Origin: Klebsiella electrica
Lineage (GTDB): Bacteria > Pseudomonadota > Gammaproteobacteria > Enterobacterales > Enterobacteriaceae
Assembly: GCF_006711645.1 (NCBI RefSeq)
Contig: NZ_CP041247.1
Location: 124,001 to 188,000 of the forward strand
Direction: 5' to 3'
Length of the DNA: 64,000 nt
A program made the position numbers and the translations under genes. Shown piece after piece: positions 9,190-48,496 of this stretch; the first letter of the stretch is position 1; the number at the start of each line of letters is the position of its first letter. The notes beneath the pieces were generated by a model, which searched no databases, was not told where the DNA came from, and worked only from the letters and a program-made list of their open reading frames with translations.

Positions 9190-9251
9190 ATAGGCAATCT
9201 TGTACAGTGTTATGAAGTATTTGAAAGCCTGGTATGCTTTTGACGATAAAC

Positions 9252-9284
9252 GGGAATCTGTCGCGGAACAACGAACAGATTCCC
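9252..9284 (-). terminator. Terminator of the gpmM-envC-yibQ operon
   Basis: GGGAATCTGT and ACAGATTCCC form a perfect 10-bp stem with a 13-base loop, 7 bases beyond the yibQ stop. Read on the minus strand, the stem is followed by a short T-rich stretch (GTTTAT), consistent with a factor-independent terminator. Confidence 0.6.
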
Positions 9285-9291
9285 GATCCGC

Positions 9292-30614: not shown

Positions 30615-32576
30615 TTATTCGTCCGTTTCTTTCACCCAGATGCGCATCTCTCCTTCGCCGCGATTGGCCCAGCTAAACCACGGAATAAAGGTTAAGGTCT
30701 GCGGCTGGCGTGAGGCTGGCGTGCGGTCGTAATTCCACAGCGCCTGACGTTCCGCATTCTCCGCCGTTTGCTTATAGCCCGGCGCCTGGAGAAGTATCTT
30801 GTGAGCAAAAATCCCTTTGCCTTCAAAAGCGCTGAACCGTGCGTGACGCGGCAGCTGTAGGTTATGCAATTGCTCGCCGTTGTCCGCCTGCTCCAGACAA
30901 TAAACCAGCGGGCCTCGCTGTACGGCGACCTGGCCTGCCTGATGGCGCACCAGCGAATTACCGTAAACGCGACGCACCGGCATAGGCAGCGTTAGCAGGA
31001 TAGTGTCGCCTTCCTGCCAGCGACGGATGATGTGCAGATAGCCTTTGCGTACATCCTGTGGAACGGGCACACCGTTCAGCGTCACCTGCGGCTTTTCGCA
31101 CCAGTCCGGGAGACGTAACGCCAGGGTATGGTCGATTGGGATGGGTGAGTCGATTGCTATTTTCACCTGCTCCTGCCACGGATAGTTACTGCTGATACGC
31201 AGCCGCAAGGTCTTATCGCCAACCGGGATCTCCGCGCTGTTGCCGACATACAGATTGATGTAGAGCGCTTCTTCACGCGGCGTATAGATATAGTGCCCCA
31301 GAGACGTGAGTACGCGGGCGATATTCGGCGGGCAGCAGGCGCAGCCGAACCAACGCTGACGAACGGGCTTCACGTGGTCATAAATATGATTGAATTTTAA
31401 CGACTTCGGGTGCACTTCCAGCGGGTTAACGTAGAAGAAGTGCTTGCCATCCAGCGCCATTCCTCCCAGCACGGTGTTATACAGCGCGCGTTCCATCACG
31501 TCGGCGTACTGGCTGTCGGCCTCCATTTCCAGCATTCGGCGAGCAAACATCATTAAACCGATGGATGCGCAGCTTTCGGCATAGACCGTGTCGTTTGGCA
31601 GGTCATAGTCGCTGCTGAAGGCCTCACCGCTGCTCTGCGAACCAATGCCGCCGGTAATATACAGCTGACGCTGGGTCATATTGTTCCACAGGCGCAGGCA
31701 GTCCTGACGTTTGCCTTCGTCCTGGCTTAAGCGGGCGAGATGGGCGATGCCGGTCATCAGGTAAACAAAGCGAACCGCATGACCGATGGCGACGGGCTGT
31801 TCAGAAATCGGCTGGTGCGCCTGGCTGTAGGGCTTATCCATCACCATCCACGCCGGGCCGTAGGTATTCCAGTAGGACGTTTTGCCGCGTTTCGCATATT
31901 CGATATCGTAAAAATGCGGCTGCGTTCCGCGCGTTTCGACGAAATAGTTCGTCAATGCCAGATAGCGCGGCTCCTGGGTCACGTCATACAGGCGCATTAA
32001 CGCCAGCTCGATCTCCGGGTGCCCTGGATAGCCGTGCAGCTGATGTTCTCCGGGGCCAAACACGCTGTCGATATGGTCGGCGAGGCGGCAAACCACCTCC
32101 AGCAACCGACGCTTACCGGTCGCCTGGAAGAAGGCGACGCCCGCTTCAATCATGTGCCCGGCACAGTATAGTTCGTGGCACTCGGCGAGGTTAGTCCAGC
32201 GTTCTGCAGGCGCTTTGACCGTGAAGTAAGTGTTCAGATAGCCATCTTCACACTGGGCGGCGGCCACCAGTTCAATCACCTCATCGGCGGTTTTTTCCAG
32301 CCCGGCGTCCGGCTTCTGACACAGCGACCAGGCCACGGCTTCCAGCCATTTCGCCACATCACTGTCCTGAAATACCATCCCGTAAAACTCCCCCTCCTGC
32401 AGCCCTGCGGCAATGCGAAAGTTTTCGATCGCATGGCTTGGATCGGCTTCGTCGATGCGATCGTTCAGTGCATCCCATTGGTAGGGAATCACCACATCGC
32501 GCACCAACTGCTGGTACTGACCGAGGAACGGGTCGCTGATTTTCAGTTTGCGTAGATTGACTTCCATTACAGACAT
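30615..32576 (-). CDS. GH127 beta-L-arabinofuranosidase (DUF1680 family)
   Basis: This 653-residue protein of the GH127/DUF1680 family has GGIGSQSSGEAFSSDYDLPN (candidate acid/base Glu318), VYAESCASIGL (Glu334 and Cys336) and WFGCACCPPNIAR (Cys414 and Cys415). These correspond to the zinc-bound Glu-Cys-Cys-Cys cluster and nucleophilic Cys of HypBA1 from Bifidobacterium, with a constant offset of 3-4 residues. It has no signal peptide, so it should act in the cytoplasm on small imported beta-L-arabinofuranosides. ATG at 32576 follows AAGGAG, 10 bases after the symporter stop. Exact substrate is unknown. Confidence 0.88.
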   Translation of the reverse strand: MSVMEVNLRKLKISDPFLGQYQQLVRDVVIPYQWDALNDRIDEADPSHAIENFRIAAGLQEGEFYGMVFQDSDVAKWLEAVAWSLCQKPDAGLEKTADEVIELVAAAQCEDGYLNTYFTVKAPAERWTNLAECHELYCAGHMIEAGVAFFQATGKRRLLEVVCRLADHIDSVFGPGEHQLHGYPGHPEIELALMRLYDVTQEPRYLALTNYFVETRGTQPHFYDIEYAKRGKTSYWNTYGPAWMVMDKPYSQAHQPISEQPVAIGHAVRFVYLMTGIAHLARLSQDEGKRQDCLRLWNNMTQRQLYITGGIGSQSSGEAFSSDYDLPNDTVYAESCASIGLMMFARRMLEMEADSQYADVMERALYNTVLGGMALDGKHFFYVNPLEVHPKSLKFNHIYDHVKPVRQRWFGCACCPPNIARVLTSLGHYIYTPREEALYINLYVGNSAEIPVGDKTLRLRISSNYPWQEQVKIAIDSPIPIDHTLALRLPDWCEKPQVTLNGVPVPQDVRKGYLHIIRRWQEGDTILLTLPMPVRRVYGNSLVRHQAGQVAVQRGPLVYCLEQADNGEQLHNLQLPRHARFSAFEGKGIFAHKILLQAPGYKQTAENAERQALWNYDRTPASRQPQTLTFIPWFSWANRGEGEMRIWVKETDE

Positions 32577-32586
32577 GACGGACTCC

Positions 32587-33987
32587 TTAAGGCTGAACGT
32601 GACGCGCATGCAGGTCGGTGGCAATGCGCACCATCATCGGATTATTGAGCTTGCAGACGCGGATCGAAAAGGCCAGCAGCAGGTGGAACAGGGCGGGCAG
32701 CAGGGTTTCCATTGAGGCGATCCCGGACAACGACAGGGCCGTTTGGTTGCCGGCGCCAGGCTGATAGGCCACGTAGATAAAAATCAGGCTGATAATTCCG
32801 GCGCTGGAGGCCCACGCCAGCTTGATGAAGAACAGGTTGAAGGCAAAGTTCATACCGGAAGAACGCACGCCGGTTTTCCATTCGCCGTAGTCGTCAGAGA
32901 AGGCCATCAACGAGAAGTGCAGCGGCAGGGTGAAGCCGAGAATAATGCCGTTGCTGAGGATAACCACCAGCCACAGGGTCTGGTATGCCTGGCCGGTTGG
33001 TAAAAACCACATCGCGATGGCCAGGGCGGCCAGCACCAGGTTGGTGTAGTAGTAGAGCTTGATGGTATCGAAGCGGCGTGAAAGCAGGTTGATGATGATG
33101 GAGCCGAAAATCGATGCGAAGGTCACCATGGTGAAAAATAGCGAAGTGTAGCCGGTAGACCCTTCAAGGACGTAGGTGATGAAGTACATATAGCCGCCGC
33201 CGCGGATATTAAAGACGTTGATCAGCAGGAACGACATCACCAGCATCAGCAGCAGCTGGTCGTTTTTACGCAGACCGGCGATATGCTCCCGCAGTGTAAA
33301 TTTACCCATCATGTCTAGCGAGACGCGCTCGCGGACCCAGAAGAAGCAGCACAGGAACATCACCACCGCAATGGCGCAGAGTACGCCGACGCCATACTGA
33401 TAGCCTTGGGCTGTGTTGCCCTGACCGAGCGCTTTTACCAGCCACGGCAGCCCGACGGAGACCAGAAACCCCGCTACGCCGCACAGGACAAAGCGCCAGG
33501 ACTGGCACGAGATAACCTCGCTATGGCGAGTGGTCATGGTGTTGATCAGCGCGCAGTACGGCACGTTAATCGCGGTGTAGCTCATCGACAGCAGCAGATA
33601 GGTGCCGAATGCCCAGGCGATTTTTACCCCCATGCTGGCATCAGGCACGGTAAACGTCAGTACGCCGATAATACCGATCGGCACGGCAATCCACAGTTGC
33701 CAGGGACGAAAGCGCCCCCAGCGGCTTTGAGTTCGGTCGGCGAGAACGCCCATAATGGGGTCGGAAATCGCGTCGAAAACGCGCAGGGCCAGGAACAGGG
33801 TCCCGACCAGCGCGGGCGTTAGCCCAAAGACATCAGTATAGAAAAAAGTTAAAAAGTTCATGATCAGGCAGGTAATGACCGTTCCGCCTGCATCCCCCAG
33901 CCCATAGCCTACTTTTTCACGTACGGATAATTTATCGTCCAGCGCTTTTTGCGCCGGATCGGTAGTGGAAATTAATGTCGAAGTCAT
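32587..33987 (-). CDS. GPH-family glycoside:cation symporter
   Basis: The 466-residue inner-membrane protein has about 12 helices and the glycoside-pentoside-hexuronide family start [20 protein letters not shown], then [20 protein letters not shown] and [11 protein letters not shown]. It belongs with YicJ, MelB and XynB-type sugar importers. Placed first in a two-gene operon with a cytoplasmic GH127 enzyme, it probably imports the arabinofuranoside that enzyme cleaves. The coupling ion cannot be read off with confidence. Confidence 0.9.
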
Positions 33988-34248
33988 GGAGAACGCCTCA
34001 CGTATTCGGAGATTTTGTTTCCAGAAAATAAGCCGCCTGGTTGTGGCTCTTGTTGTGTAGTTTGCAAAGTACCTTTTTATTTTGCATTGAATTCACCACA
34101 CGACAAGGGAAGGGAAAAGTACAAAAAGGTGATGATTCCGACCTGATTGAGAAAATGTGATTTCGATCCGCTCAATCAGGCTGTTTTCGTTAATAATCAA
34201 TAATAAGATGATTATTTTCATCACGTATTAGCGAGAGTTGACATAGTT
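33988..34248. promoter_or_regulatory. Divergent control region symporter-GH127 / AraC regulator
   Basis: The 261 AT-rich bases hold a widely spaced inverted repeat: AAAGTACCTTTTT at 34066-34078 and AAAAGTAC-AAAAAGGT at 34115-34130, with ACCTTTTT/AAAAAGGT exactly complementary. This is a plausible binding arrangement for the divergent AraC-type regulator. A weaker TGAT-N7-ATCA-type repeat near 34208-34222 lies close to the regulator start. Confidence 0.5.
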
Positions 34249-35067
34249 ATGCTCGAATTATCCATAGCGCTTCCGATCCGGGTGCAAAACGGAGGGTTAT
34301 TTATTTCTCGCGGCGTGGGCAGCCACCCGTCGCGTACCCTGCATTCCTGGGAAGTTATTTTTGTTGAAAAGGGGACATTAACGATCCGTGAAGAGGATAA
34401 GATTTTCACGGTAAATTCAGGAGAAAGTTTATTACTCTGGCCGCAACGCCGTCATGTCGGTGTGGGGGAATTTCCGGCAGATTTAAAGTTTTACTGGCTG
34501 CATTTTGAATTAACACCAGCGGTGGAAAAAAAAGCGCATCAATCGGTGTTGATGTTACCGCAGCACACAACGTTAAGTGACCCACAATATATGACCGGGT
34601 TATTTCGACAATTCTTAAATGAGCAGGAAAATGTGCATCGTAGCGTAGCGCTGGAATGTATTTTGCTGCTGATTCTACAGCAGATATCCGCCTCTGCTTT
34701 AAGCGAAAGCGCGGGGAATAACCCGGGTATTGCGCTGGCCTGGAAAGCTCGCCAGATGATCGGTACGCACTTTCATCTGCCCATTTCGGCGTCGCTGCTG
34801 GCGAAAGAGTTGCATTGCAATGTGGATTATTTAGGTCGGGTTTACCGACGGGCCTTTCGTCTGACGTTAACCGAAGCCATTCACCGTCAGCGTGTACGGG
34901 CAGCGGAGAAGCTGTTGATCAGCGATTCGCTGTCGCTAAAAGAGGTGGCGGAGCAGTGCGGTTTTCACGATGTGGGCTATTTTCGGCAGATTTTCCGCAA
35001 GCATACCGGCATAACGCCCGCCGCATGGAAGCGGCGGTATTGTAAGGAGCATATTAATTCGGAATAA
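34249..35067 (+). CDS. AraC-family transcriptional regulator
   Basis: The 272-residue protein has an N-terminal cupin-like sensor (SWEVIFVEKGTLTIREEDKI, SGESLLLWPQRRHVG) and a C-terminal double helix-turn-helix (about residues 165-265: SASLLAKELHCNVDYLGRVY, LKEVAEQCGFHDVGYFRQIF, HTGITPAAWKRRY). It diverges from the symporter-GH127 operon and most likely activates it in response to a released sugar. The ligand is not known. GC content is lower in the first half than in neighbouring backbone genes, compatible with acquisition. Confidence 0.9.
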   Translation: MLELSIALPIRVQNGGLFISRGVGSHPSRTLHSWEVIFVEKGTLTIREEDKIFTVNSGESLLLWPQRRHVGVGEFPADLKFYWLHFELTPAVEKKAHQSVLMLPQHTTLSDPQYMTGLFRQFLNEQENVHRSVALECILLLILQQISASALSESAGNNPGIALAWKARQMIGTHFHLPISASLLAKELHCNVDYLGRVYRRAFRLTLTEAIHRQRVRAAEKLLISDSLSLKEVAEQCGFHDVGYFRQIFRKHTGITPAAWKRRYCKEHINSE

Positions 35068-35149: not shown

Positions 35150-35845
35150 TCACTGCCCATAATAGGCATTTGCTCCGTGCTTACGCAGGTAGTGTTTATC
35201 CAACAATTCAGCCTGCATATCCGGCAGCTGTGGGGCCAGCTGGCGCGAGAACAGGCCCATATAGGCGCACTCTTCCAGCACCACCGCATTGTGCACCGCG
35301 TCATGGGCATTTTTACCCCAGGCAAACGGGCCGTGGGAGTGCACCAGTACCGCCGGAACCTGCATCGGGTTCAGGGCGCGCTCCTCAAATGTTTTGACGA
35401 TCACCTCGCCGGTTTGGTACTCGTACTCGCCGCCGATCTCTTCAGCGGTCATCAGGCGGGTGCACGGGATCGTTCCGTAGAAATAGTCCGCGTGGGTGGT
35501 GCCCCAGGCGGGCAGGTCCAGCCCGGCCTGCGACCAGATGGTGGCGTGGCGGGAGTGAGTATGCACAATGCCGCCGATCTCCGGGAAGCGACGATAGAGC
35601 GCCAGGTGCGTTGGCGTATCGGAAGAGGGTTTCTTGCTGCCATCCACCACTTTGCCGCTGGCGATATCCACCACCACCATATCTTCGGCTTTCATCACGG
35701 CGTACTCCACGCCAGAAGGTTTAATCACCATCAGTTTGCCGCTTTCATCCACTGCGCTGACGTTCCCCCAGGTGAAGGTAACAAGCCCGTGAGCGGGCAG
35801 CGCCAGGTTTGCCGCCAGCACCTCGGCTTTCAGTTGCTCTAACAT
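35150..35845 (-). CDS. sgbE: L-ribulose-5-phosphate 4-epimerase SgbE (YiaS)
   Basis: The 231-residue class II aldolase/AraD-family enzyme has zinc histidines in [12 protein letters not shown] and in [11 protein letters not shown], and the acidic SSDTPTH segment. It converts L-ribulose 5-phosphate to D-xylulose 5-phosphate, the last yia step. The start overlaps the sgbU stop by 7 bases. It ends the yia operon. AraD and UlaF do the same reaction; the identity here comes from operon position. Confidence 0.93.
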
Positions 35846-36699
35846 ACGAATCCTCCTTCCTCCATACGGGCTTCAATCCAGCGGCGGGCCTGAATGATTT
35901 CCAGTACCGGCTCTTTGGCTTTTTCAGTCCACATCTCAATCAGAAATGCACCGCGATAGTTCAGGTTCTGTAATGTGCTGAAGACATTGACGAAATCGAC
36001 GCATCCTTCACCAAACGGCACATCACGGAACTGGCCTGGGCTGGTGTCGGTGACCGGCTGCGTGTCTTTCAGATGAATCGCGGCGATGCGGTCGATACCC
36101 AGAGCCAGCTCCGCCGGGACGTCATTACCCCAGGCGCTGAGGTTGCCCACGTCCGGGTAGACGGTGAACCACGGCGAGGCGAGCAGTTGGTCCCATTTTT
36201 TCCACTTGGTGATGGAGTTCATAAACGCGGTGTCCATGATCTCCACCGCCAGCATCACCTGAGCCCCTGCAGCCTGTTCAACGGCCCACGCCAGCCCTTC
36301 GGCGAAACGCTGCTGAGTGCCCGCGTCATGCTCCTCGTAATAGACGTCGTAACCGGCGAGCTGGATGGTGCGGATACCCAAATCGCGCGCCAGCTTGATG
36401 GCTTTGCTCATGATATCCCTGGCCCGCTCACGCACGGCTTCGTCGCGGCTGCCGAACGGAAAACGGCGATGTGCGGAAAGGCACATCGACGGAACCGACA
36501 CATTGGTTTCCAGCATCGCTTCCACTAACGAGGCGCGCTGGGCGGTGGTCCATTCGAGTCGCGACAGGCGCTCATCGGTTTCGTCGACGGACATCTCCAC
36601 GAAGTCGAATCCGCAGCTTTTCGCCAGAACCAGACGCTCCGGCCAGGATAAGTCTTTCGGTAACGCTTTTTCATAAATGCCTAATGGATGGTTACGCAT
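35839..36699 (-). CDS. sgbU: L-xylulose-5-phosphate 3-epimerase SgbU (YiaR)
   Basis: This 286-residue TIM-barrel (AP-endonuclease 2-like) epimerase has [19 protein letters not shown] near the N-terminus, [19 protein letters not shown] in the middle and [13 protein letters not shown] at the end, providing metal-binding Glu residues. It converts L-xylulose 5-phosphate to L-ribulose 5-phosphate. The TAG lies inside the sgbE start region (TATGTTAG), and only 2 bases separate it from sgbH. Confidence 0.94.
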
Positions 36700-36701
36700 A
36701 A

Positions 36702-37355
36702 TTACGCTCTCCAGATGTCGCGAATGTGGGCGTGGAACTCTTCAGCCACTTGCTGCGGATCGGCGGCGCTGGAAAGGGCGCGTCCGGCAATAAAGGCCTT
36801 CACGTTAATCTCTTTGAACAGCGGCAGGTCGGCAGGGGTGATGCCCCCGGTGACGGAGAGCGCCAGGCCGATATCCGACAGCGCTTTCATGCGCGCCAGA
36901 TCCACTTCACCCCACTGCTGGCCGCTCGCCTGAGCGTCGCGCCCACGGTGATAAATCGCCTGACGCACGCCGGCGCTGTACCAGTCGCGCGCATCGTCGA
37001 AGGTCCAGTTACCAAACAACTCGATTTGGATTTCGCCTCCGCGCGCAGCAGCGACGGCGTGACCTTTTTCGATGGTGGCCAGCGGCGCGGCGCAGATGAT
37101 GGTCATCCAGTTGGCCCCCGCGTCCAGCGCCTGCCGGGCCAGGGTTTCCCCGGCGTCGGCGACTTTCCAGTCGGCGACGATCAGTTTTTCCGGGCATTGG
37201 GCGCGCAGGGCGCGAATGGCATGTAGCCCCTCGCTCAGGCAGAGAATGGTGCCCGCTTCTACGATATCCACACGGTCTTTTAACAACGCAACATCGCGCT
37301 GGGCGGCGGCAAGGTCGGTGTGATCGAGCGCCAGCTGCAGTAATGGTCGGCTCAT
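36702..37355 (-). CDS. sgbH: 3-keto-L-gulonate-6-phosphate decarboxylase SgbH (YiaQ)
   Basis: The 217-residue member of the orotidine-monophosphate-decarboxylase suprafamily has LQLALDHTDL at the first strand, VADWKVADAGE with the metal-binding Asp/Lys pattern (D-x-K-x-x-D), and LSVTGGITPADLPL plus FIAGRALS at the phosphate site. It decarboxylates 3-keto-L-gulonate 6-phosphate to L-xylulose 5-phosphate. Its start overlaps the lyxK stop by 4 bases (ATGA). Confidence 0.95.
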   Translation of the reverse strand: MSRPLLQLALDHTDLAAAQRDVALLKDRVDIVEAGTILCLSEGLHAIRALRAQCPEKLIVADWKVADAGETLARQALDAGANWMTIICAAPLATIEKGHAVAAARGGEIQIELFGNWTFDDARDWYSAGVRQAIYHRGRDAQASGQQWGEVDLARMKALSDIGLALSVTGGITPADLPLFKEINVKAFIAGRALSSAADPQQVAEEFHAHIRDIWRA

Positions 37356-38857
37356 AAAGAGTGCTCCTTAATACGGGCGTGAAAGCCCTGAAGTGCTTCA
37401 ATTAACATCTGGTAACGGCGGTATTTGCGCTGGTAGGCCGCGTGGGCGTTCATGTCCGGCGTCAGGGTGCGTATTTCGTAGCTGAAGGTCTGCTGGGCAT
37501 CGGTGAAGTTTGCGTAAACGCCGGTGCCGACGAGAGCCGCAATGGCGGCACCAAAGCAGCCGGTCTCTTCCACCTGCGGCAGTTCAACCGGCAGGCCGCT
37601 GACGTCCGCCAGCATTTGCATCCACACGGGAGAGTGCGCCGGGCCGCCGGTGACGCGCAGGGAACGTACCTCGGTAAAGCGTTCGCGCATGCGGTTGAGG
37701 TGCGTCATGTGGCTAAATACGACCCCTTCATAGACCGCCTGTAGCAGGTGCGCGCGGGTATGCAGCGCCTGTATGCCATAAAAGCCGCTGGTCATCTCAA
37801 GCCCGGCGTTACTGCCGTACAGGAAGGGCAGGAAGAAGACATCGCTGGCGGCTTTCGGCAGGCTGTCGACGAGCTTGTTGATTTCATCAAAGCTGATGTC
37901 GCCAAGTTGTGCGGTCAGCCATTCGAGGTTGCCGGAGGAGGTAGGGCTGGCTTCGTGGACAATGTACTGGCCAGCATTCACGTAGCGTCCGTAGACGAAG
38001 GGGTGCGCTTCGTTATCGCGCAGCCCTTCAGCGATGCCGCTGGTGACCGCCCAGGTTCCCATGACGGCGTTCAGCGTGTACTCGTCATCAAGCCCGGCGC
38101 AGAGCGCGGTAGAAACCACATCAAACAGACCGCCCACAACGGGAGTTCCCGCCGCCAGACCGGTCATGGCGGCTGCCTGAGAGGTGATTTCACCGCTGAT
38201 TTGGGATGAACCGACAATGGGCGGCAGCGCAGCGTCGATTTCGCTGATGCCAAGCCACTGCGTCAGGCGGGGATCGTACCGCCCGGAGGTCATATGGTAG
38301 AGGTTGGATTCAGAGATATTGCTCTCTTCGCAGCCTTTCACGCCGGTGAGGCACCAGCGCAGATAATCGTGGCCCATCATCACGCAGCCAATTTGCGCGT
38401 AACGCTGCGGCTCGTGCTCCTTCACCCAGCGCAACAGTGAAGCCGGGTGCCCGGTCCATAAGGTCTGGCGCGTTAACGGGTAGAGCTTTTGCGGAATGCC
38501 GTCCTGCTGCCAGCGTGTGACGATCTCCATCGCGCGGCGATCGGAAGAGAGGATCGCGGTGCCCAGCGGCTGGTCATTTTTATCCAGCAAAAACAGCCCC
38601 TTGCCCTGAGCGGAAATCCCGATGCCATCGACTTGTTCACCGCGAATGCCGGTGCGTTGCAGCAGACGGGAAATGGTTGCCGCGCAGTGCTGCCACAATG
38701 CCGTCATGTCGCGCTCCGCCCAACCGGGCTGCGGGCTGAGGGTGTGAATGGACCGGCGTTCAATAGCAAATTCTTTACCCTGGCTGTTGTACAGGCCTGC
38801 TTTCAGATAAGTACCGCCACAATCGATACCCAGCCAGAAGGTCTCTTTTTCACTCAT
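37352..38857 (-). CDS. lyxK: L-xylulose/3-keto-L-gulonate kinase LyxK (YiaP)
   Basis: This 501-residue FGGY sugar kinase has the ATP-binding WLGIDCGGTYLKAGLYNSQG, GISAQGKGLFLLD and LRVTGGPAHSPVWMQMLADV. In this operon it should phosphorylate the 3-keto-L-gulonate made by YiaK; E. coli LyxK also acts on L-xylulose. It follows the transporter gene after 54 bases that contain a hairpin, and is coupled to sgbH. Confidence 0.95.
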   Translation of the reverse strand: MSEKETFWLGIDCGGTYLKAGLYNSQGKEFAIERRSIHTLSPQPGWAERDMTALWQHCAATISRLLQRTGIRGEQVDGIGISAQGKGLFLLDKNDQPLGTAILSSDRRAMEIVTRWQQDGIPQKLYPLTRQTLWTGHPASLLRWVKEHEPQRYAQIGCVMMGHDYLRWCLTGVKGCEESNISESNLYHMTSGRYDPRLTQWLGISEIDAALPPIVGSSQISGEITSQAAAMTGLAAGTPVVGGLFDVVSTALCAGLDDEYTLNAVMGTWAVTSGIAEGLRDNEAHPFVYGRYVNAGQYIVHEASPTSSGNLEWLTAQLGDISFDEINKLVDSLPKAASDVFFLPFLYGSNAGLEMTSGFYGIQALHTRAHLLQAVYEGVVFSHMTHLNRMRERFTEVRSLRVTGGPAHSPVWMQMLADVSGLPVELPQVEETGCFGAAIAALVGTGVYANFTDAQQTFSYEIRTLTPDMNAHAAYQRKYRRYQMLIEALQGFHARIKEHSL

Positions 38858-38877
38858 CTTTTTTTCCTGGTTTGCAT

Positions 38878-38897
38878 CCCCTCCCGGTGGGAGAGGG
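38878..38897. repeat. CCCTCTCCC palindrome between yiaX2 and lyxK
   Basis: CCCCTCCC-GGTG-GGAGAGGG is a hairpin inside the operon, followed by TTGGGGTGAAG. It belongs to the same family as the repeats near 23977 and 27263 and may stabilise or partly stop the upstream message. Confidence 0.6.
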
Positions 38898-38911
38898 TTG
38901 GGGTGAAGGCG

Positions 38912-40231
38912 TCAGATCGCGCGTTTCGGTGCGTTGACCGCGCCGATAGACGCACTGTTGGCATCGCACCGGGACGGCAGCAGCAGCGCCATCAGCGCGG
39001 CAATCGCCAGTGAAATCGCCAGGCAGTAAACGCCCGCATCTTTGCTGTAAAGCGTGATCAGCACGCCCACGGCATACGGGCCGCAGAAGCCGCCGAGGTT
39101 GCCGAGGGCGTTGATCACACCGCGTGCGCCGCCGGCCATTTCGGCGCTGAACAGACGGGCAGGGATGGTCCAGAACACCCCGGCAGCGGACTGCAGGAAG
39201 AAGCCACAACCGACCAGCGCGGTGTACGACAGCCAGACGCTCTCTTTCAGCACAACGGAAAGGAACATGCAGGCGGCGAAACCAATCAGCGGCAGGGAGA
39301 CGAACAGTTTGCGTTTGCCGGTGCGGTCAGACAGGGAAGAGAACAGGAACATCCCGGCAATCGCCCCCACGTAAGGCAGAATGGCGAGCATCCCGACCTG
39401 GCCCATACTGGTGTGGGTCAGCTCTTTCAGGATGGTCGGTAGCCAGAGGGTGTAGCCGTAAATCCCGGTCTGGTAGAAGAAGTTCAGGGCAATCAGTTGC
39501 CACATGGTGCGGTCAGACAACACAGTGCTCAGAGAGGCATTCACCGTGGTTTTACCGGCAATGGCGCGCTGTTCAGCGGCCAGGGTTTCCACCAGGTACT
39601 TTTTCTCCGCGTCAGAAATCCAGCGGGCTTCCTGCGGGCGGTCATAAATCGTCAGCGCCCACATCACCAGCACGACGAGGGAGAGCAGACCTTCGATGAT
39701 GAACAGCCAGCGCCAGTCGAGGGCGGTGATTATCCAGCCGGAGAGTGGGGCGGTGATGATCCCGGCGATCGGCACGAACATGATGACGATGGCATTCGCG
39801 CGACCGCGTTCGGCATCCGGGAACCAGTTACTGATCATGGTGAGTACCACAGGCAGCATACCGCCTTCTGCCACACCCAGCAGAAAGCGCAGCGCCAGCA
39901 GCTGGTAGTGGTTGGTAACAAGACCGGTAAACACGGAAATTACCGCCCACGCGACCAGCGACCAGCCGATGAATTTTTTGCCGCTGCCGTGAACGGCGAT
40001 TTTGCCGCCGGGAACCTGTAAGAAGAGATAGCCGAGGAAGAAAATACCGCCAGCCAGGCCTGCCATCGTCGCGGTGATGCCTAAATCCTGATCCATCCCG
40101 CCGGGCATAGCAAAGGCAATATTCACGCGGTCCATATAAGAAATAATACAGGTGATAAGAATCGGAGGAATAATTCTTAACCAGCGTTGGCGCGGAATAT
40201 CCGCGGTTGTAGCGTAAGAGGAAGTATTCAT
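38912..40231 (-). CDS. yiaX2: MFS transporter YiaX2 (anion:cation symporter type)
   Basis: The 439-residue inner-membrane protein has about 12 helices and the ACS-family pattern YMDRVNIAFAMPGGMDQDLG, FLQVPGGKIAVHGSGKK and RFLLGVAEGGMLPVVLTMIS. Related carriers move sugar acids such as hexuronates and tartrate. Klebsiella work on yiaKLX1X2PQRS links it to aerobic L-ascorbate use, so uptake of ascorbate or a breakdown product is the likely role. It replaces the YiaMNO TRAP transporter of E. coli. Confidence 0.88.
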   Translation of the reverse strand: MNTSSYATTADIPRQRWLRIIPPILITCIISYMDRVNIAFAMPGGMDQDLGITATMAGLAGGIFFLGYLFLQVPGGKIAVHGSGKKFIGWSLVAWAVISVFTGLVTNHYQLLALRFLLGVAEGGMLPVVLTMISNWFPDAERGRANAIVIMFVPIAGIITAPLSGWIITALDWRWLFIIEGLLSLVVLVMWALTIYDRPQEARWISDAEKKYLVETLAAEQRAIAGKTTVNASLSTVLSDRTMWQLIALNFFYQTGIYGYTLWLPTILKELTHTSMGQVGMLAILPYVGAIAGMFLFSSLSDRTGKRKLFVSLPLIGFAACMFLSVVLKESVWLSYTALVGCGFFLQSAAGVFWTIPARLFSAEMAGGARGVINALGNLGGFCGPYAVGVLITLYSKDAGVYCLAISLAIAALMALLLPSRCDANSASIGAVNAPKRAI

Positions 40232-40284
40232 ATTAATCTCGTGTTTAAATTGACTGACCTTGCGATGAAATTGACGCTTTATAT

Positions 40285-41220
40285 TTATTGTCGGGCTATG
40301 TTTAGCGCGTGAATGCCATCGCGTAATATGGCTATGCGATGATTCGCATCAGCATTCGCATCAATTTCCAGTAACTTAATACCGGCAAACTGTAATTGTG
40401 CTGAATCAGCCACATTAAATAATTCTTTTGCGTGAGCCGCTGTTAACAGGCCTTGCGGGCAAAACGGGGCGAACGGTGCGTGCAGGTCAGTCCATTCGCC
40501 GTACGGCCCTTCGGTCGCGGTGCCAGAGAACATCAGCGCCCCCAGTTTGCCCGCGGCACGTGCCGCCTGAGTATGCGCCAGCGGCAGGGCGGCGTTACGC
40601 CCTTCAATCGCTGAACGCGCCCAGTTGATACAGATATCAATGCGGTAACCCGCCAGCACCTGCAGCACGTTTTCCAGCGGCAGAAAGCCTTTGCGTGGCG
40701 CAGGCTGGTTCATGGCATCACAATGTTCCAGCATGAGTGAGCATGACCAGTCCCAGTCCGCAATCTCTTTGATGGAGCGCGCGAAGGCATCGGTTGCCTG
40801 CTCTACGCTCGCATTACCCACAAGCGGTGCAGCCTGCAGTTCAAGGGAGATGACCTTGCCGGCAAAACGTTTGTTTAGTGCATTGATTTTGTTGTGTAAA
40901 TGACGATGGAATGCGACGCATGCCAGACGCTGTTCTTCATCGCTGGAGGCCAGGCCGAAAGCCGTGTTGCCGCCGCCGCGGCGACGCATCGTTTCCGGGA
41001 TGGCCGTCACCACCATCTTCCACTCCTGCGGCGTATGCTGGAGCAACCACTCATCGCCATAGGGATGAAAGTGCTCATGGCATGGTTGTTCCAGCCCACG
41101 GATGTGGGGCGTATCCGCGAGTAAGCGCCAGAATTCCGTCTCTTCTTGTTCGCTCTTTTGGTGAAATGAGGGCGCGCAAGGGTATGCGCCGATGATATAA
41201 CCGGCGTCATTTCTTTCCAT
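40285..41220 (-). CDS. yiaX1: DUF4862 family protein, YiaX1
   Basis: The 311-residue soluble protein starts with [20 protein letters not shown] and has [39 protein letters not shown] and [17 protein letters not shown]. The repeated His/Glu pairs at strand ends suggest a metal-using TIM-barrel isomerase or epimerase-like fold, which is my inference. Its position matches yiaX1 of the Klebsiella ascorbate operon; no biochemical activity is established that I know of. Confidence 0.8.
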
Positions 41221-41265
41221 TTTTCACTCCTTTTATTTATCGGTGTTCGATAAATAAATGACGGA

Positions 41266-42743
<1,478 letters not shown>

Positions 42744-42775
42744 ACGCTTTCTCCATGACAACTTTTCGTTTCACA

Positions 42776-42796
42776 TAGTGGAATTTTATTCCACTA
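42776..42796 (-). promoter_or_regulatory. Candidate YiaJ operator upstream of yiaK
   Basis: TAGTGGAAT and ATTCCACTA form a perfect 9-bp inverted repeat around TTT. The TGGAAT-ATTCCA core resembles the known IclR consensus (TGGAAAT-ATTTCCA), and YiaJ is an IclR-family protein encoded nearby. It lies between the SMP-30 gene and yiaK, so it probably marks an internal regulated promoter. Confidence 0.7.
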
Positions 42797-42856
42797 AATA
42801 GTGCTGGGTTGCAAAAACACGCCGGCAGGACCGGTGTGTTTCGGCGTTACTCCGGT

Positions 42857-43720
42857 TTATCCCTGAAGGCGGGATGGGGCGAGGGTCACCCGGTACAGCG
42901 ATGTCGTCGCCGTAATAAAAAGCGTATTCCCGTCGGGGCCGCCAAAAGTGCAGTTAGAGACGCGCTCGGGGACCGCAATGGTGTCCAGTAATTCGCCTGC
43001 GGCGGAGAAAATCAAAATCCCTGTCTCGCAGCTGCAGTAAATATTCCCGTCCCGGTCGACGCAAAATCCGTCCGGAATACCCGGTTTAACCTGGGTTACG
43101 ACGTGGGAAAATAACGCGTTATCGCCTTCAAGGCGGTAAGCACGAATTTCCCGGCGGCCCTGGCTCGGAAAATCAATAACCGACATATCTGCCACGTATA
43201 GCCATTTATCATCCGGCGAAAAGGCCAGCCCGTTGGGGCGCTGGGTATCGCTGATGGCAATAGCGACCTGGTTTCGCGCTTCATCAAATCGGTAGACGTA
43301 GCAGCCAATGACCTGGCTTGCGGCGCGATAGCCCTCTTCGTCGCTGATGATGCCGTAGGGCGGATCGGTAAACCAAATCGACCCGTCCTGGCGCACCGCG
43401 ATATCGTTGGGGGAGTTAAAACGCAGCCCGTCGACTTTATCCACCAGCAGAGTGTGATTGCCTGCGGCGTCGGTACGGCTGATACCGCGCCGACCGTGCT
43501 CGCAGGTCAACAAACGCCCTTGCAAGTCCCGCGCGTTGCCGTTGGCATAGTGGGATTCGGCGCGGAACACGCTGACCCCATTTTGCGCATCCCAACGGAA
43601 CATTCTGTTGCCCTTCACATCGCTGAAAATCAGGCACTGCTGGTCTGCCAGCCACACCGGGCCCTCTGCCCAGATCGCCGGTGAGCACAGGCATGCAAAA
43701 CTTCCCGTGACGACTAACAT
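42857..43720 (-). CDS. SMP-30/gluconolactonase family lactonase
   Basis: The 287-residue beta-propeller protein has the metal-site motifs of SMP-30/regucalcin lactonases: AIWAEGPVW (Glu), RFNSPNDIAV (Asn), RPNGLAFSPDD (Asn) and GIPDGFCVDRDG (Asp). Family members open aldonolactones such as gluconolactone and L-gulonolactone. Here it lies one base after the ABC binding-protein gene and 113 bases before yiaK, which uses the ring-opened 2,3-diketo-L-gulonate. Opening dehydroascorbate or a related lactone is thus a reasonable inference. No clear signal peptide is present. Confidence 0.88.
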   Translation of the reverse strand: MLVVTGSFACLCSPAIWAEGPVWLADQQCLIFSDVKGNRMFRWDAQNGVSVFRAESHYANGNARDLQGRLLTCEHGRRGISRTDAAGNHTLLVDKVDGLRFNSPNDIAVRQDGSIWFTDPPYGIISDEEGYRAASQVIGCYVYRFDEARNQVAIAISDTQRPNGLAFSPDDKWLYVADMSVIDFPSQGRREIRAYRLEGDNALFSHVVTQVKPGIPDGFCVDRDGNIYCSCETGILIFSAAGELLDTIAVPERVSNCTFGGPDGNTLFITATTSLYRVTLAPSRLQG

Positions 43721-43721
43721 C

Positions 43722-44831
43722 TCACTTCACTCCCCAGATGGCTTTGTAGCGATCGCGATAATGGTTGTCCGGGTCAAATTCGTTGTTCTGGCCGCCGTCG
43801 GCGCCGATGTTCTCCTTGGTCACCAGATGCGCCGGGGTGACATAGCCAGACGGCTCTTTACCGGCGAAGGCGCGGTTTAATTCATCCAGCAGCTGCCAGC
43901 CGTGCAGTTTCAACGGCTCGGGTACGGTTGCTACCTGCGCTTTGCCTTCACGCACGCGCTGGTAGGCGGTGACGGAACCGTCGCCAGCGGAGATGTTGTA
44001 CGGCGGCTTATCTCCGGTGCCTTTGCCCGCGGTTTGCAGGGCTGGAGCCATAAAGTCGAAGTACAGATCGTTAATTGCCAGCGAGTATTCGAACCTGTCG
44101 CCATATTTTTGGATCAGGCTGTAGGTCATGCCCGGCATGCGGTTGGAGGTGTCGGCAAGCGGGGTATCGATAAATTCCACTACCTGGCAGCCGCTGCACT
44201 GCTCAATCACCTTCTTCATCGCGTTGGCTTTATCCAGCGCGATTTGGTACAGCGAGTCGGTGAAAATAAGCACTTTGGCGGTACCGTTGGATTTCGCCAC
44301 CGCATACAGCGCCGCCATGCGCGAGACTTCGTTCGAGTCGGAGGTCACGTTGTAGAAAATGTTGTAAGCCGGAACCGGGCCAGGCGCGGGCACCGCGTGC
44401 CAGGCGGTCAGCACGATGCCCTCTTTCACGGCTTTTTTCAGCGGAATTTTGGCGACGTTGGGGTTCCAGCCACCAATGACGATACCGTCCGGTTTGCGGG
44501 CGATCGCCTGGTTAAGCGCCGCCAGTTGATCTTTCACCGAACCTGCGCCATCCAGCACATCCAGCTGCCAGCCTGCGGCTTTCGCCGCTTCTTCCAGCCC
44601 CTCTTTAACCCCCAGCACGCCGCCGTTTTTCATGTCCGAGGCGATGAAAATGATCTTCTTACCAGGCTGCAGCGTCGGACCCTGGGTTGGGCCATCCCAG
44701 TCGGTGACTGGCGCGGTGGCTTTGGCAATCGCCGTTTTCGCCTGCTGAACAAAGGTATCGTCGGCGAGGCTGAAACCACTTGCCATCATCAACCCGGCAG
44801 CCAGACAGTACTGAACTATTTTGTTATTCAT
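43722..44831 (-). CDS. Periplasmic sugar-binding protein of an ABC importer
   Basis: The 369-residue protein has a signal peptide cleaved near GFSLA-DD and a type I periplasmic-binding fold: KKIIFIASDMKNGG, ARKPDGIVIGGWNPNVAKIP, YSLAINDLYFDFM. A CSGC pair about residue 215 may form a disulfide in the periplasm. Ligands of this cluster are pentoses, hexoses and related cyclic compounds; here the yia context suggests a sugar acid or lactone. First of the importer genes downstream of the permease, 21 bases away. Confidence 0.87.
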   Translation of the reverse strand: MNNKIVQYCLAAGLMMASGFSLADDTFVQQAKTAIAKATAPVTDWDGPTQGPTLQPGKKIIFIASDMKNGGVLGVKEGLEEAAKAAGWQLDVLDGAGSVKDQLAALNQAIARKPDGIVIGGWNPNVAKIPLKKAVKEGIVLTAWHAVPAPGPVPAYNIFYNVTSDSNEVSRMAALYAVAKSNGTAKVLIFTDSLYQIALDKANAMKKVIEQCSGCQVVEFIDTPLADTSNRMPGMTYSLIQKYGDRFEYSLAINDLYFDFMAPALQTAGKGTGDKPPYNISAGDGSVTAYQRVREGKAQVATVPEPLKLHGWQLLDELNRAFAGKEPSGYVTPAHLVTKENIGADGGQNNEFDPDNHYRDRYKAIWGVK

Positions 44832-44852
44832 TTTCAGTTCCTTACGCGAGAG

Positions 44853-45923
44853 TCATTGGGTAACGGAGGAGCCTGATGCTGGCGATTGTGCCCGCTGCAC
44901 CAGTTTTTTATTTAATGCCCGACGGCGTTGAGCATAGCCCGCCAGGGTAATCGACAGCAGCAGCGTCGCACCGTTGAACAGCGGTTCGACCCAAAACGCG
45001 CCGCCGAACTGCTGGATGCCCGCAATACCGATCGCCAGCACCGCAATACCGACCACCGTGCCCCAGACGTTCACCCGGCCGGGACGAATGGTGGTGCTGC
45101 CAAGGAACGCGCCCACCAGCGCCGGGAGCAGATAATCCATACCAACGCTGGCCTGGCCCACGCCCTGCTCGGCGGCGATGATCACCCCGGTAAAGCCGGT
45201 TAAAGTGCTGGAAGTGATAAATGCCCCGATGATGTAACGATTAACGGAAATGCCGTTGAGCGCTGCGGCGACCGGGTTACCGCCCACCGCGTACATGCAG
45301 CGACCAATCGGGGTATGTTCGGTGATAATCCACAGCACCACGGCGGCAAAAAGGACGTAGAAGGCCACCACCGGAATACCGAACAGGTCGGAGTGATGCA
45401 GGGCGATAAAGGCGTCCGGTAAGTCACCAACGATCTGCCGACCACCAGAGTGCCAGAGCGCGATGGCGTACAGCACCGTACCGGAACCCAGGGTCGCAAC
45501 AAAGCTGTCGATATCCGCCAGCGCCACCAGAATACCGTTCAGCAAACCGTAGAGCGCAGAGAGCACCAGCACGATCGCCACAGCGGCGGGCCAGGAGAAA
45601 CCATATTCGACCTGCAAAGTAATGGCGAGGATATGCCAGAGCACGATGCCGAAGCCGACGTTGAGGTCGATTTTGCCGACAATCATCGGGATGGTCGCCG
45701 CCAGCGCCAGCAGGGCGATTTTCGATTTGCTGTCGAGGATCGCCTGCAACGTCAACAGGGAAGCAAACGAAGGCGTTGTCAGTGAAAAAACGATAACCAG
45801 CACCACACAGATCGCGGGTAAACCGTAACGGGTGGTTAATTGTCCAAGCCAGGTGGCCACACCGTGTTCATGAAGTGATACGCGTGATTCCAGGGCCGTC
45901 GATTTCATTGATGTTTTAGCCAT
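44853..45923 (-). CDS. ABC sugar importer permease (RbsC/XylH type)
   Basis: The 356-residue inner-membrane protein has about 9-10 helices and the BPD_transp_2 hallmarks VGKIDLNVGFGIVLWHILAI, ATLGSGTVLYAIALWHSGGR and AVGGNPVAAALNGISVNRYI. The ATG at 45923, preceded by CGGAG, lies 13 bases beyond the ATPase stop; the longer open frame runs back into the ATPase gene and is rejected. It forms the channel with the adjacent ATPase and binding protein. Confidence 0.9.
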   Translation of the reverse strand: MAKTSMKSTALESRVSLHEHGVATWLGQLTTRYGLPAICVVLVIVFSLTTPSFASLLTLQAILDSKSKIALLALAATIPMIVGKIDLNVGFGIVLWHILAITLQVEYGFSWPAAVAIVLVLSALYGLLNGILVALADIDSFVATLGSGTVLYAIALWHSGGRQIVGDLPDAFIALHHSDLFGIPVVAFYVLFAAVVLWIITEHTPIGRCMYAVGGNPVAAALNGISVNRYIIGAFITSSTLTGFTGVIIAAEQGVGQASVGMDYLLPALVGAFLGSTTIRPGRVNVWGTVVGIAVLAIGIAGIQQFGGAFWVEPLFNGATLLLSITLAGYAQRRRALNKKLVQRAQSPASGSSVTQ

Positions 45924-45936
45924 AACGCACTCCGAC

Positions 45937-47457
45937 TTAATGTATGGTGCCGCTGCCCGATGCCAGCTCAAGCAATCTGGCAAAGGTGACATCCTGGTTG
46001 AGCAGTTCGCCGACGATCTGCCCGCGGTTAAATACCAGCGCCCGGTTACAGATGTGCGCCACCTCTTCCAGGTCGTTGGAAATGACCAGAATGGCAACGC
46101 CGTTTTGCAGCGCCTGATTGAGTAAATCGTAAATTTCTGCGCGTGCGCCCACGTCAACGCCTGCAGAAGGGTCTTCCAGAATGAGCAGAGGGGCATTGAG
46201 CGAGAGCCAGCGTGCCATGACCACTTTTTGCTGGTTGCCGCCCGACAGTGCACTGATTTCAATATTTATCTGCGAGGGGCGCACGTCGAACTGGCGGATT
46301 TTCTCCCAGCTCAGCGGCGCTTCGCTTTTTTCGTTATAGCGGGAAAGCGGCGCATGACCGTGTTTACAGGGGTTCATAAACAGGTTTTCACGCACCATCA
46401 TGCCCGGAATCAGACTTTCATGAAGACGGTCGCCGGCGACAAAAGAGACGCCGGCGGACATCGCCTCCCCTGGTGTTGTCGCCGTAAACGGCACGCCATT
46501 TAAGGTGATTTGTCCACTTTCCTGCGTCCTGCAGGCAAACAGTAAACGTCCAATCTCTTCCTGACCGGCGCCACGCAGACCGGCGAGCGCCACCATCTCT
46601 CCGGCACGCAGCTCGAAGGAGACCGGCCCGGTATCGCCCACTTTGACGTGGTCCATTTTCAACAGCACCGGCGCGCTGGCATCGGGTAAGGGCTGGCGCT
46701 GGTCATCACGCAGGTTTTCGCCCACAATCAGTTCGACCAGACCACGCAGGCTGTAGCGGCTGATATCGCCGCCTCCGGCGTAGCAACCATCGCGCATCGC
46801 ACAAACGGTATCCGCCATCTCCATCACCTCATCCAGGCGGTGGGTGATGTAAATCATGCCTACCTGCTTCTCGCGCAGGATGTTCATGACGCGGAACAGG
46901 TGGCGTACATCGTCGGCAGGCAGTGAGGCGGTCGGTTCATCGAGCACCAGTACCGAGGCGTCAACTGCCACCGCGCGGGCAATCGCCAGCAGGGATTTTT
47001 CGGTGCGGGAAAGGTCAAACACGCGGTCATCCGGGTCTATCTGAATGCCGATATCTTCCAGCGCTTTTTGCGCCTGGCGTTTGGTGGCCGCCCAGTCAAT
47101 CAGACCGAAGCGACGGGGAAACCCCATCACCAGCGCCATGTTTTCGGCGACGGTCATCCACTCTACCAGGCCTAAATCCTGATGAATAAAGGCGATAGGC
47201 TGTTCGTTGCCCTGACGTAACGCGGCGGCAGAATCCACCGGCTGACCGCGAAACAGGATCTCGCCGCCATCACGGGAATAGACGCCCGCCAGCACCTTAA
47301 TCAACGTCGATTTGCCAGCGCCGTTTTCTCCCAACAGCGCCACAACCTGGCCCGGGTAAATATCCAGACTGACGTTATTGACCGCCACATTGCCACCAAA
47401 ACGCTTGATGATGTGGCGCATAGATAACAACGGAGACAACACTGCTGCTTCTGTCAT
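45937..47457 (-). CDS. ABC sugar importer ATPase (two nucleotide-binding domains)
   Basis: The 506-residue RbsA/XylG-like protein has NBD1 with Walker A GENGAGKST (residues 43-51) and Walker [14 protein letters not shown]1's signature is atypical, LSRTEKS (149-155). NBD2 has the degenerate loop AGLRGAGQEE, a canonical LSGGNQQ (404-410), and LILEDPSAG (425-433), in which the usual Asp-Glu is reversed to Glu-Asp. So only one composite site looks fully equipped. It is first in a minus-strand operon that runs toward yiaK and diverges from yiaJ. Confidence 0.92.
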   Translation of the reverse strand: MTEAAVLSPLLSMRHIIKRFGGNVAVNNVSLDIYPGQVVALLGENGAGKSTLIKVLAGVYSRDGGEILFRGQPVDSAAALRQGNEQPIAFIHQDLGLVEWMTVAENMALVMGFPRRFGLIDWAATKRQAQKALEDIGIQIDPDDRVFDLSRTEKSLLAIARAVAVDASVLVLDEPTASLPADDVRHLFRVMNILREKQVGMIYITHRLDEVMEMADTVCAMRDGCYAGGGDISRYSLRGLVELIVGENLRDDQRQPLPDASAPVLLKMDHVKVGDTGPVSFELRAGEMVALAGLRGAGQEEIGRLLFACRTQESGQITLNGVPFTATTPGEAMSAGVSFVAGDRLHESLIPGMMVRENLFMNPCKHGHAPLSRYNEKSEAPLSWEKIRQFDVRPSQINIEISALSGGNQQKVVMARWLSLNAPLLILEDPSAGVDVGARAEIYDLLNQALQNGVAILVISNDLEEVAHICNRALVFNRGQIVGELLNQDVTFARLLELASGSGTIH

Positions 47458-47680
47458 TTAAGGTGACCTCCCGATGAGGGGGTGAGAACGTTTTACAAGC
47501 TATAAATTTCACTATGCGAAATCTGATTTCAAATATATCGATCATGATTTCACAAAGCAATCGGTGAGGATGTTTTTGAAATTCAATAAAATCAGTTAAT
47601 TACAAAATTTATGTTCAGATCGTGAAGTGAAACACACTTTGCGCTACCATCAGGTCGCCACTGAATGGAGAGCGGAAGCG
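47458..47680. promoter_or_regulatory. Divergent control region ABC importer / yiaJ
   Basis: This AT-rich 223-base region holds GAAATC-T-GATTTC at 47518-47530, whose GAAAT-CTG-ATTTC spacing equals the GGAAT-TTT-ATTCC operator before yiaK. A second overlapping repeat, ATTTC (47506-47510) with GAAAT (47518-47522), lies beside it. They are good candidates for YiaJ binding to control both the importer operon and its own gene. Confidence 0.55.
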
Positions 47681-48496
47681 ATGAACACAAAAGAGAGTGA
47701 AAACGCGCCGGAGAAAGAGCGGCCGGCTGGAAGCCAAAGTTTGTTTCGCGGTTTGATGTTGATAGAAATCTTAAGCAATTACCCGAACGGTTGCCCGCTG
47801 GCGCATCTTTCAGAACTGGCCGGGCTGAACAAAAGCACCGTGCACCGATTACTACAAGGGCTGCAATCCTGTGGCTACGTCACTCCCGCACCCGCCGCCG
47901 GGAGCTATCGTTTAACCACCAAATTTATTGCCGTCGGACAAAAAGCCCTGACGTCGCTGAATATTATCCATGTGGCGGCGCCGCATCTGGAAGCGCTAAA
48001 CCTCTCTACCGGGGAAACCATCAACTTCTCCAGCCGTGAGGACGATCACGCCATTCTGATTTATAAGCTGGAACCGACGACCGGGATGCTGCGTACCCGC
48101 GCGTATATCGGCCAACATATGCCGCTGTACTGTTCGGCAATGGGTAAGATCTACATGGCGTTTGGTCAGCAGGAATATGTGAAAGAGTACTGGGAAACGC
48201 ATCAGGAGCAGATTCAGCCTCTGACGCGCAACACCATTACGGGGCTGCCTGCGATGTACGATGAGCTGGCGCAAATTCGTGAAAGCGTGATGGCGATGGA
48301 CCGTGAAGAGAATGAGCTTGGCGTTTCCTGCATTGCTGTTCCGGTGTTTGATATTCAACACCGTGTACCGTATGCCATCTCCATCTCACTCTCGACGTCA
48401 CGTCTGAAACAGATTGGCGAGAAAAATTTGCTTAAGCCGCTGCGCGACACGGCACAGGCCATCTCTAACGAACTGGGATTTACCTTACGCGTGTAG
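47681..48496 (+). CDS. yiaJ: IclR-family regulator YiaJ (PlaR)
   Basis: The 271-residue protein has an N-terminal winged helix (SLFRGLMLIEILSNYPNGCP, HLSELAGLNKSTVHRLLQGL) and a C-terminal IclR effector domain (GMLRTRAYIGQHMPLYCSAM, NELGVSCIAVPVFDIQHRVP). It represses the yia operon; in Klebsiella L-ascorbate 6-phosphate has been reported as inducer. ATG at 47681 follows GGAGAGCGG and precedes the conserved ERPAGSQSLFRGL. It diverges from the importer operon rather than directly from yiaK. Confidence 0.95.
   Translation: MNTKESENAPEKERPAGSQSLFRGLMLIEILSNYPNGCPLAHLSELAGLNKSTVHRLLQGLQSCGYVTPAPAAGSYRLTTKFIAVGQKALTSLNIIHVAAPHLEALNLSTGETINFSSREDDHAILIYKLEPTTGMLRTRAYIGQHMPLYCSAMGKIYMAFGQQEYVKEYWETHQEQIQPLTRNTITGLPAMYDELAQIRESVMAMDREENELGVSCIAVPVFDIQHRVPYAISISLSTSRLKQIGEKNLLKPLRDTAQAISNELGFTLRV

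Follow-up and report, generated by a model that had tools for sequence, protein, structure and literature searches.

The yia systems of Klebsiella and Escherichia coli, yiaKLX1X2PQRS and yiaKLMNOPQRS respectively, are governed by the regulator YiaJ and described with yiaX2 or yiaMNO as their importer; the excerpts of the two papers we drew on name neither an ATP-binding cassette (ABC) importer nor an SMP-30 lactonase among their genes (PMC6958661, PMC4324149). As excerpted, the literature gives 2,3-diketo-L-gulonate (DKG) as the substrate of YiaK (PMC3527362) and also of the tripartite ATP-independent periplasmic (TRAP) importer YiaMNO (citing Thomas et al. 2006), for which an earlier study named L-xylulose (PMC4324149). 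Here we analyse 64,000 nucleotides of Klebsiella electrica (contig NZ_CP041247.1 of assembly GCF_006711645.1, positions 124,001 to 188,000; hereafter the window), in which a cassette of four genes, encoding the ATPase, permease and periplasmic binding protein of an ABC importer and a putative SMP-30/gluconolactonase-type lactonase, lies between yiaJ and yiaK. Judging from gene content, predicted operators and gene neighbourhoods, we consider it likely that these genes form a YiaJ-controlled unit that imports and opens an ascorbate-family lactone, most likely dehydroascorbate, and feeds the yia unit beside it.

Two further systems lie close to this locus in function. In the ula operon, which encodes the ascorbate phosphotransferase system (PTS) and the lactonase UlaG, ascorbate is phosphorylated on entry, UlaG has a metallo-beta-lactamase fold and not a propeller, and the route converges on L-xylulose 5-phosphate. 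A complete-looking ula operon (UlaR, UlaG, PTS subunits, a UlaD paralogue, UlaE and UlaF) is also present in this genome (L148, 6668-13398). In Ralstonia, an L-ascorbate pathway ascribed to Stack et al. 2020 (a study cited in PMC11066805 and PMC12932077) reportedly employs a gluconolactonase-family enzyme that opens dehydroascorbate to DKG and is said to proceed downstream via lyxonate, where the window instead uses YiaK-LyxK-YiaQRS; relatives of the ABC genes and lactonase of the window are found in gene sets of that type. The lactonase function is one probably known already from another bacterium. Among the open-licence papers listed in our literature searches, no title or abstract start concerned a yia-locus ABC importer or SMP-30 lactonase (older subscription work lay outside the scope), and the importer appears undescribed in them.

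The yia genes of the window follow the order yiaK, L, X1, X2, lyxK, Q, R, S with a divergent yiaJ; every gene of the Klebsiella form is present, and the regulator agrees in both family and place (Table 1). The names yiaX1, yiaX2 and lyxK and the functional name of yiaQ are our assignments, that of yiaQ by homology. YiaK itself scores 645.5 bits against an NCBIfam equivalog cut-off of 316. A sequence-only reading of the window had set the ATPase, permease, binding-protein and SMP-30 genes in the interval from yiaJ to yiaK, with spacings of 13, 21, 1 and, before yiaK, 113 bases, and both the genes and the spacings are exactly as it described. Loci of Raoultella ornithinolytica and 'Enterobacter sp. 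10-1' encode counterparts of all four cassette proteins at 95-99% identity.

Family searches reveal the plan of a CUT2-type importer, namely a fused two-domain ATPase, one BPD_transp_2 permease and a Peripla_BP_4 binding protein, and the ATPase carries one clear Walker A motif, two Walker B motifs and LSGG in its second half. The importer shares subunit plan and fold with RbsABC, AraFGH and XylFGH, but the NCBIfam equivalog scores listed for the three subunits are all below cut-off (for the ATPase, among 25 of 191 matches), so that no substrate name can be transferred to it; the binding protein is at most 24% identical to solved structures among the 50 matches listed. The binding protein also has a CxxC pair, C212 and C215, invariant in 52 alignment rows, for which a disulphide or redox role is possible.

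The SGL domain of the lactonase reaches 155.2 bits against a Pfam cut-off of 26.3, with 3dr2 and 3e5z as the nearest solved sequences. Five catalytic-type residues, E19, N102, N105, N163 and D217, are invariant across all 92 aligned rows, some of which are near-copies, and we take E19, N163 and D217 to be the counterparts of the metal ligands E18, N154 and D204 of human SMP-30, a match made by motif and not by superposition. By eye, a signal peptide is absent from the N-terminus of the lactonase and present in the binding protein. The enzyme is thus probably cytoplasmic, and ring opening would follow import.

The cassette and yiaK share predicted operator sites. The element GAAATCAGATTTCGCAT precedes the ATPase gene and a second palindrome precedes yiaK; the published box of PlaR, the E. 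coli YiaJ, printed as ATnTGAAACnnnGTTCAnTT in the excerpted paper, is similar to the window operator (PMC6958661). In three cassette-free loci, the spacer between yiaJ and yiaK carries GAAATCAGATTTCGCAT shortly 5' of yiaK (L126, L128) or a one-base variant of it (L125). Allowing at most one mismatch, the operator pattern, derived from these two sites, had only two matches in the 5.79-Mb genome, at the ATPase and yiaK promoters, a count that measures rarity and not prediction; two mismatches gave two further matches elsewhere, and the reversed pattern gave none. Across relatives, a 13-base motif occurs in 39 of 43 lactonase-yiaK gaps (the window included, and one gap, that of L031, measuring zero length and thus unable to contain it) versus 22 of 860 length-matched random stretches, and in 47 of 78 ATPase upstream regions versus 21 of 1560. 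The operator arms are constant among relatives while the spacer bases vary, the pattern expected for a bound palindrome.

Besides the second operator, the 113-base gap between the lactonase gene and yiaK holds a terminator-like hairpin, whose core (42822-42834) is one of 13 such sites in a promoter and terminator scan against 17.5 expected by chance and is weak alone; promoter-like and terminator-like sites are both fewer in that scan than in shuffled sequence. A hairpin with T tract recurs in 28 of the 43 gaps under a loose rule with no control. Hairpin and palindrome together suggest that the run comprises probably at least two transcription units, and the cassette and the yia genes would most likely be two units under one repressor. 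The 12.3-kb run pointed out by the sequence-only reading does exist as 12,308 bases on one strand (35150-47457), yet a single operon spanning it was rejected as the default reading in view of the hairpin and second operator between cassette and yiaK, and one transcript for the whole run is improbable.

We then turned to other genomes. One genome per species was scanned for relatives of the binding protein, and the best 80 of 391 loci were analysed, with neighbour genes counted at 75% coverage within 10 kb. The lactonase is present in 75 of the 80 loci (76 by a looser rule), yiaK and yiaJ in 65 each, lyxK in 61, and at least one of yiaK, yiaJ, lyxK, yiaQ and yiaR in 69. These 69 yia-linked loci cover ten named families: Erwiniaceae (16), Pasteurellaceae (13), Yersiniaceae (12), Enterobacteriaceae (11) and Pectobacteriaceae (7) are the larger, followed by Pleomorphomonadaceae (3), Hafniaceae (2) and single loci of Aeromonadaceae, Chitinibacteraceae and Rhodocyclaceae, with two loci lacking a family name. 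Such linkage, along with an operator motif common to cassette and yiaK, supports assigning the cassette to the yia/DKG pathway. The combination does not look special to this locus: Serratia, Pectobacterium, Erwinia and Pantoea, among others, have the same order of yiaJ, cassette and yiaK. Most Pasteurellaceae loci run yiaJ, yiaK, yiaL, TRAP importer, cassette, lyxK, and Mangrovibacter bears the cassette on the far side of yiaJ. From these neighbourhoods, the conserved feature is the partnership of cassette and yia genes, not the position of the cassette.

A sample of 295 genomes from the order gave a similar picture, with the binding protein (E <=1e-100) in 12, YiaK (E <=1e-120) in 18 and both in 9 (Fisher p 2.4e-10, kinship not corrected); the two lie at most 8 kb apart in eight of the nine shared genomes and 46 kb apart in one. 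Nine YiaK genomes are without the binding protein at the threshold. Conversely, G112, G169 and G182 have the binding protein and no YiaK at threshold, the contig of G112 ending there. In G169 and G182 a distant YiaK (46%) is clustered with TRAP, YiaS, YiaL, LyxK, YiaQ, an IclR-type regulator and YiaR, the binding-protein relative stands at 54-55%, and a transaldolase-like gene is added, in G182 also a transketolase-like one (names by eye). Four loci from another family of the order (L131, L132, L136, L137) show a DKG cluster with transaldolase-, transketolase- and phosphatase-like genes, again by eye. Distances between binding proteins correlate with those between YiaK proteins (r 0.825, 63 loci), a figure confounded by shared ancestry and given little weight. 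In E. coli, 560 of 5426 genomes gave a match, none at 80% query coverage and, among the 20 matches listed, to the yiaJ end only; at megablast sensitivity no copy of the cassette turned up in the species. Phages gave no match.

For the substrate, a second genomic setting is informative. Relatives of the ABC family and of the SMP-30 lactonase also occur together in L102, L103, L104, L140 and L152, loci of Caballeronia, Janthinobacterium, Paracidovorax, Paraburkholderia and Phaeobacter, where they adjoin a YncE-like protein and an enolase-type dehydratase in all five cases, PdxA in four (not L104), a lactonase-like amidohydrolase in L103 and L104, and cytochrome b561 in L140. We take this YncE/PdxA/enolase-type/b561 set to be the Ralstonia-type route from ascorbate to lyxonate, which would share ascorbate, dehydroascorbate and DKG with the yia route. 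The lactonase of the window is 41-50% identical to those of the second set, the Ralstonia protein itself being outside the comparison. Since relatives of the ABC-lactonase pair stand in such a set, dehydroascorbate is the best fit among the lactones that the sequence-only reading had named; its broader proposal, that the cassette supplies uptake and lactone opening to the yia pathway, gains from the gene linkage and the shared operator motif.

Parts of the two routes also occur in other combinations. Similar second sets in Variovorax and Sphingomonas lack this ABC family and have other importers instead, and that of Burkholderia cenocepacia includes a YiaX2 relative 65% identical to YiaX2 of the window. 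Fourteen plasmid records encode a YncE-like protein; among the seven regions read, a Streptomyces plasmid (L154) has none of the second set and Cupriavidus (L151) only the lactonase. A tblastn search of the window with the L140 set returned relatives of the major facilitator superfamily (MFS) transporter, the ABC proteins and the lactonase only, with no YncE, PdxA, enolase-type or b561 gene beside the lactonase. On such comparisons, lactonase, YiaX2 and ABC importer seem to have been exchanged between two back ends. At slightly less than even odds, in our judgement, a dedicated dehydroascorbate ABC importer plus cytoplasmic lactonase could be an exchangeable front end, set on two unrelated back ends that meet at DKG and working alongside the other yia importers without replacing them.

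Those other importers help to narrow the cargo. YiaX2 is present in 40 of the 80 loci (37 by open reading frame clusters) and TRAP in 15, never both, and one or the other accompanies yiaK in 54 of 65 loci. As another importer is mostly present and YiaMNO is reported for DKG, the ABC system should carry something else, and an ABC importer combined with a cytoplasmic lactonase best suits a compound with its ring intact. DKG is the ring-opening product of dehydroascorbate. In the mechanism we propose, the four cassette genes would be one YiaJ-controlled transcription unit supplying the yia unit next to it; an ascorbate-family lactone, most probably dehydroascorbate, would enter the cell through the periplasmic protein and its ABC importer; the SMP-30 enzyme would open the ring in the cytoplasm to give DKG; and YiaK, LyxK, YiaQ, YiaR and YiaS would convert DKG to D-xylulose 5-phosphate.

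The same gene linkage would be seen if the importer carried L-ascorbate itself, or DKG, and the lactonase acted on dehydroascorbate that arises by oxidation within the cell. Release of E. coli PlaR from the yiaK promoter by L-ascorbate, in the excerpt consulted, accords both with this and with the mechanism we prefer; D-galacturonate releases it as well (PMC6958661). The title of a K. pneumoniae paper gives L-ascorbate-6-phosphate as inducer (reference in PMC4324149). Two further observations also fit either reading: the b561 gene adjoining the module in L140, and L066 (6106-16082, a KSB3-division bin), where ABC genes without an SMP-30 gene lie near a UlaG-family lactonase (53%; 482.8 bits, cut-off 306). 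L066 also holds an opposite-strand regulator-like gene and two dehydrogenase-type genes. Against import of either compound stands the YiaX2 or TRAP importer already present at most yiaK loci; no oxidase is linked within the window, and for DKG a lactonase would be superfluous. We regard this explanation as unlikely, though worth keeping in sight. We think it improbable that the module serves L-gulono-1,4-lactone or some further lactone, or else a compound of the 2-keto-L-gulonate/idonate type, with its place next to yia due to overlapping sugar-acid metabolism. SMP-30 enzymes are often broad in substrate, and two Rhizobium loci, discussed below, have idonate, gluconate and 2-hydroxyacid dehydrogenase genes at hand; yet in three loci (L078, L084, L095, two of them beta-proteobacterial by name) the only yia genes in view beside the ABC genes and the lactonase are yiaJ and yiaK, which ties the module product to the substrate of YiaK, and a well-supported branch separates the yia rows from the Rhizobium rows. 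That an ordinary sugar ABC transporter should lie beside yia by chance is hardly credible: its fold and families are indeed typical of common sugar importers, but the linkage is repeated in ten named families and the operator motif is shared.

Several observations weigh against import and opening of dehydroascorbate for the yia pathway. On Rhizobium plasmids L138 and L139, a binding protein 51-53% identical to that of the window lies beside idonate/gluconate genes, namely L-idonate 5-dehydrogenase and 2-hydroxyacid dehydrogenase (both below NCBIfam cut-offs) and gluconate 5-dehydrogenase-like genes, with the SMP-30 gene on the strand opposite to the transporter; a 2-keto-L-gulonate/idonate route is possible there, and this context implies that relatives may bind other keto-sugar acids. 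Of 187 plasmid records that gave a match of any kind, 131 belong to Rhizobium. Dehydroascorbate hydrolyses spontaneously, so it is not evident that a lactonase would be required. A search of the whole genome with b561 of L140, run with no positive control, gave no match, and so no ascorbate oxidase has been identified. Eleven of the 80 loci show no yia gene in view (L083 among them, cut by a contig end), and the lactonase is also absent in four of these eleven; in six (L036, L065, L068, L096, L100, L101) the YncE/PdxA set is likewise missing from view. Within the genus, co-occurrence alone is not significant (p 0.26): all five of 20 genomes with the binding protein of the cassette have a true YiaK (best match of 88% identity or more, found in 14), and nine of these 14 are without the cassette. 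Finally, the 13-base motif was composed after viewing sites in the same loci, and its counts are not blind. One of the six loci, L068 of Grimontia (6073-9926), shows three ABC genes and no lactonase, followed by phenylalanyl-tRNA synthetase genes.

In the binding-protein tree (91 rows), a branch with 97% support in the Shimodaira-Hasegawa-like approximate likelihood ratio test (SH-aLRT) divides the yia rows from those of Rhizobium, Burkholderiales and one Anaerolineales row. Yet the binding protein of Phaeobacter, which shares 61% identity with one from Rhizobium, is located in a YncE/PdxA set, a contrast suggesting that the ligand may vary within the subfamily. The two Rhizobium loci go part of the way towards what the sequence-only reading had named as counter-evidence, the same genes elsewhere with another pathway, with 69 of 80 loci still yia-linked.

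That reading also spoke of the cassette as inserted, a direction of change that the YiaK tree leaves unproven. The tree has 78 rows, 69 with the cassette, four loci that end before the cassette (L134, L136, L137, L143) having been excluded and near-duplicate loci of the same genomes dropped from this tree and from that of the binding protein. It needs two changes of the cassette trait, so a simple insertion was not adopted; one loss plus one regain, or other histories, would fit, and cassette-free Klebsiella-type genomes may have lost the cassette.

Two side observations concern further transporters. A second yia copy in G005, a genome of the genus (L129, 10292-12585), has an SMP-30 lactonase (65%) and an MFS_2-type sugar symporter by yiaJ with no ABC genes in view, another instance of a lactonase paired with an importer. 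Beside yiaS in the window, 30615-35067 holds a large putative glycosidase (669 aa) and an AraC-like regulator, both recognised by eye, and a sugar symporter of 466 aa that is 36% identical to the L129 symporter.

Table 1 Cassette, yia genes and predicted regulatory sites, in window positions.
Feature	Position	Strand	Basis
ABC importer ATPase, RbsA-like, two fused nucleotide-binding domains	45937..47457	-	Open reading frame; ABC_tran in two stretches; Walker A at residue 43, LSGG at 404
ABC importer permease, BPD_transp_2 family	44853..45923	-	Family search; hydrophobic segments
Periplasmic sugar-type binding protein, Peripla_BP_4	43722..44831	-	Signal-peptide-like N-terminus (by eye)
SMP-30/gluconolactonase-type lactonase (putative)	42857..43720	-	SGL 155.2 bits
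Terminator-like hairpin and T run, 3' of lactonase gene	42817..42839	-	Core 42822-42834
YiaJ-type operator 2 (predicted), upstream of yiaK	42769..42793	-	Sequence pattern
YiaJ-type operator 1 (predicted), upstream of ATPase gene	47507..47531	-	Sequence pattern
yiaJ (plaR), IclR-family regulator, divergent	47627..48496	+	IclR_C 212.7 bits; true start codon perhaps further in
yiaK, 2,3-diketo-L-gulonate reductase	41745..42743	-	NF009750 above cut-off
yiaL, DUF386 family	41266..41733	-	Family search
yiaX1, DUF4862	40285..41220	-	Family search
yiaX2, MFS transporter	38912..40231	-	Family search
lyxK (yiaP), FGGY kinase	37352..38857	-	Family search
yiaQ, 3-keto-L-gulonate-6-phosphate decarboxylase	36702..37355	-	Homology: 46% identical paralogue in ula region (L148), same genome
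yiaR, 3-epimerase	35839..36699	-	57% identical to UlaE of same genome
yiaS, 4-epimerase	35150..35845	-	59% identical to UlaF of same genome (L146)

Vitamin C oxidises fast in air, and bacteria of gut, plants and fruit should meet some dehydroascorbate; the transporter family described here occurs in plant-associated Enterobacterales and in Pasteurellaceae. If dehydroascorbate is indeed the cargo, a dedicated importer and lactonase would account for bacterial uptake of the compound ahead of its decay, and a family labelled no more precisely than 'sugar ABC transporter' in the annotated plasmid records read would acquire a function. The enterobacterial yia pathway would then be completed upstream of YiaK, with its missing first step supplied.

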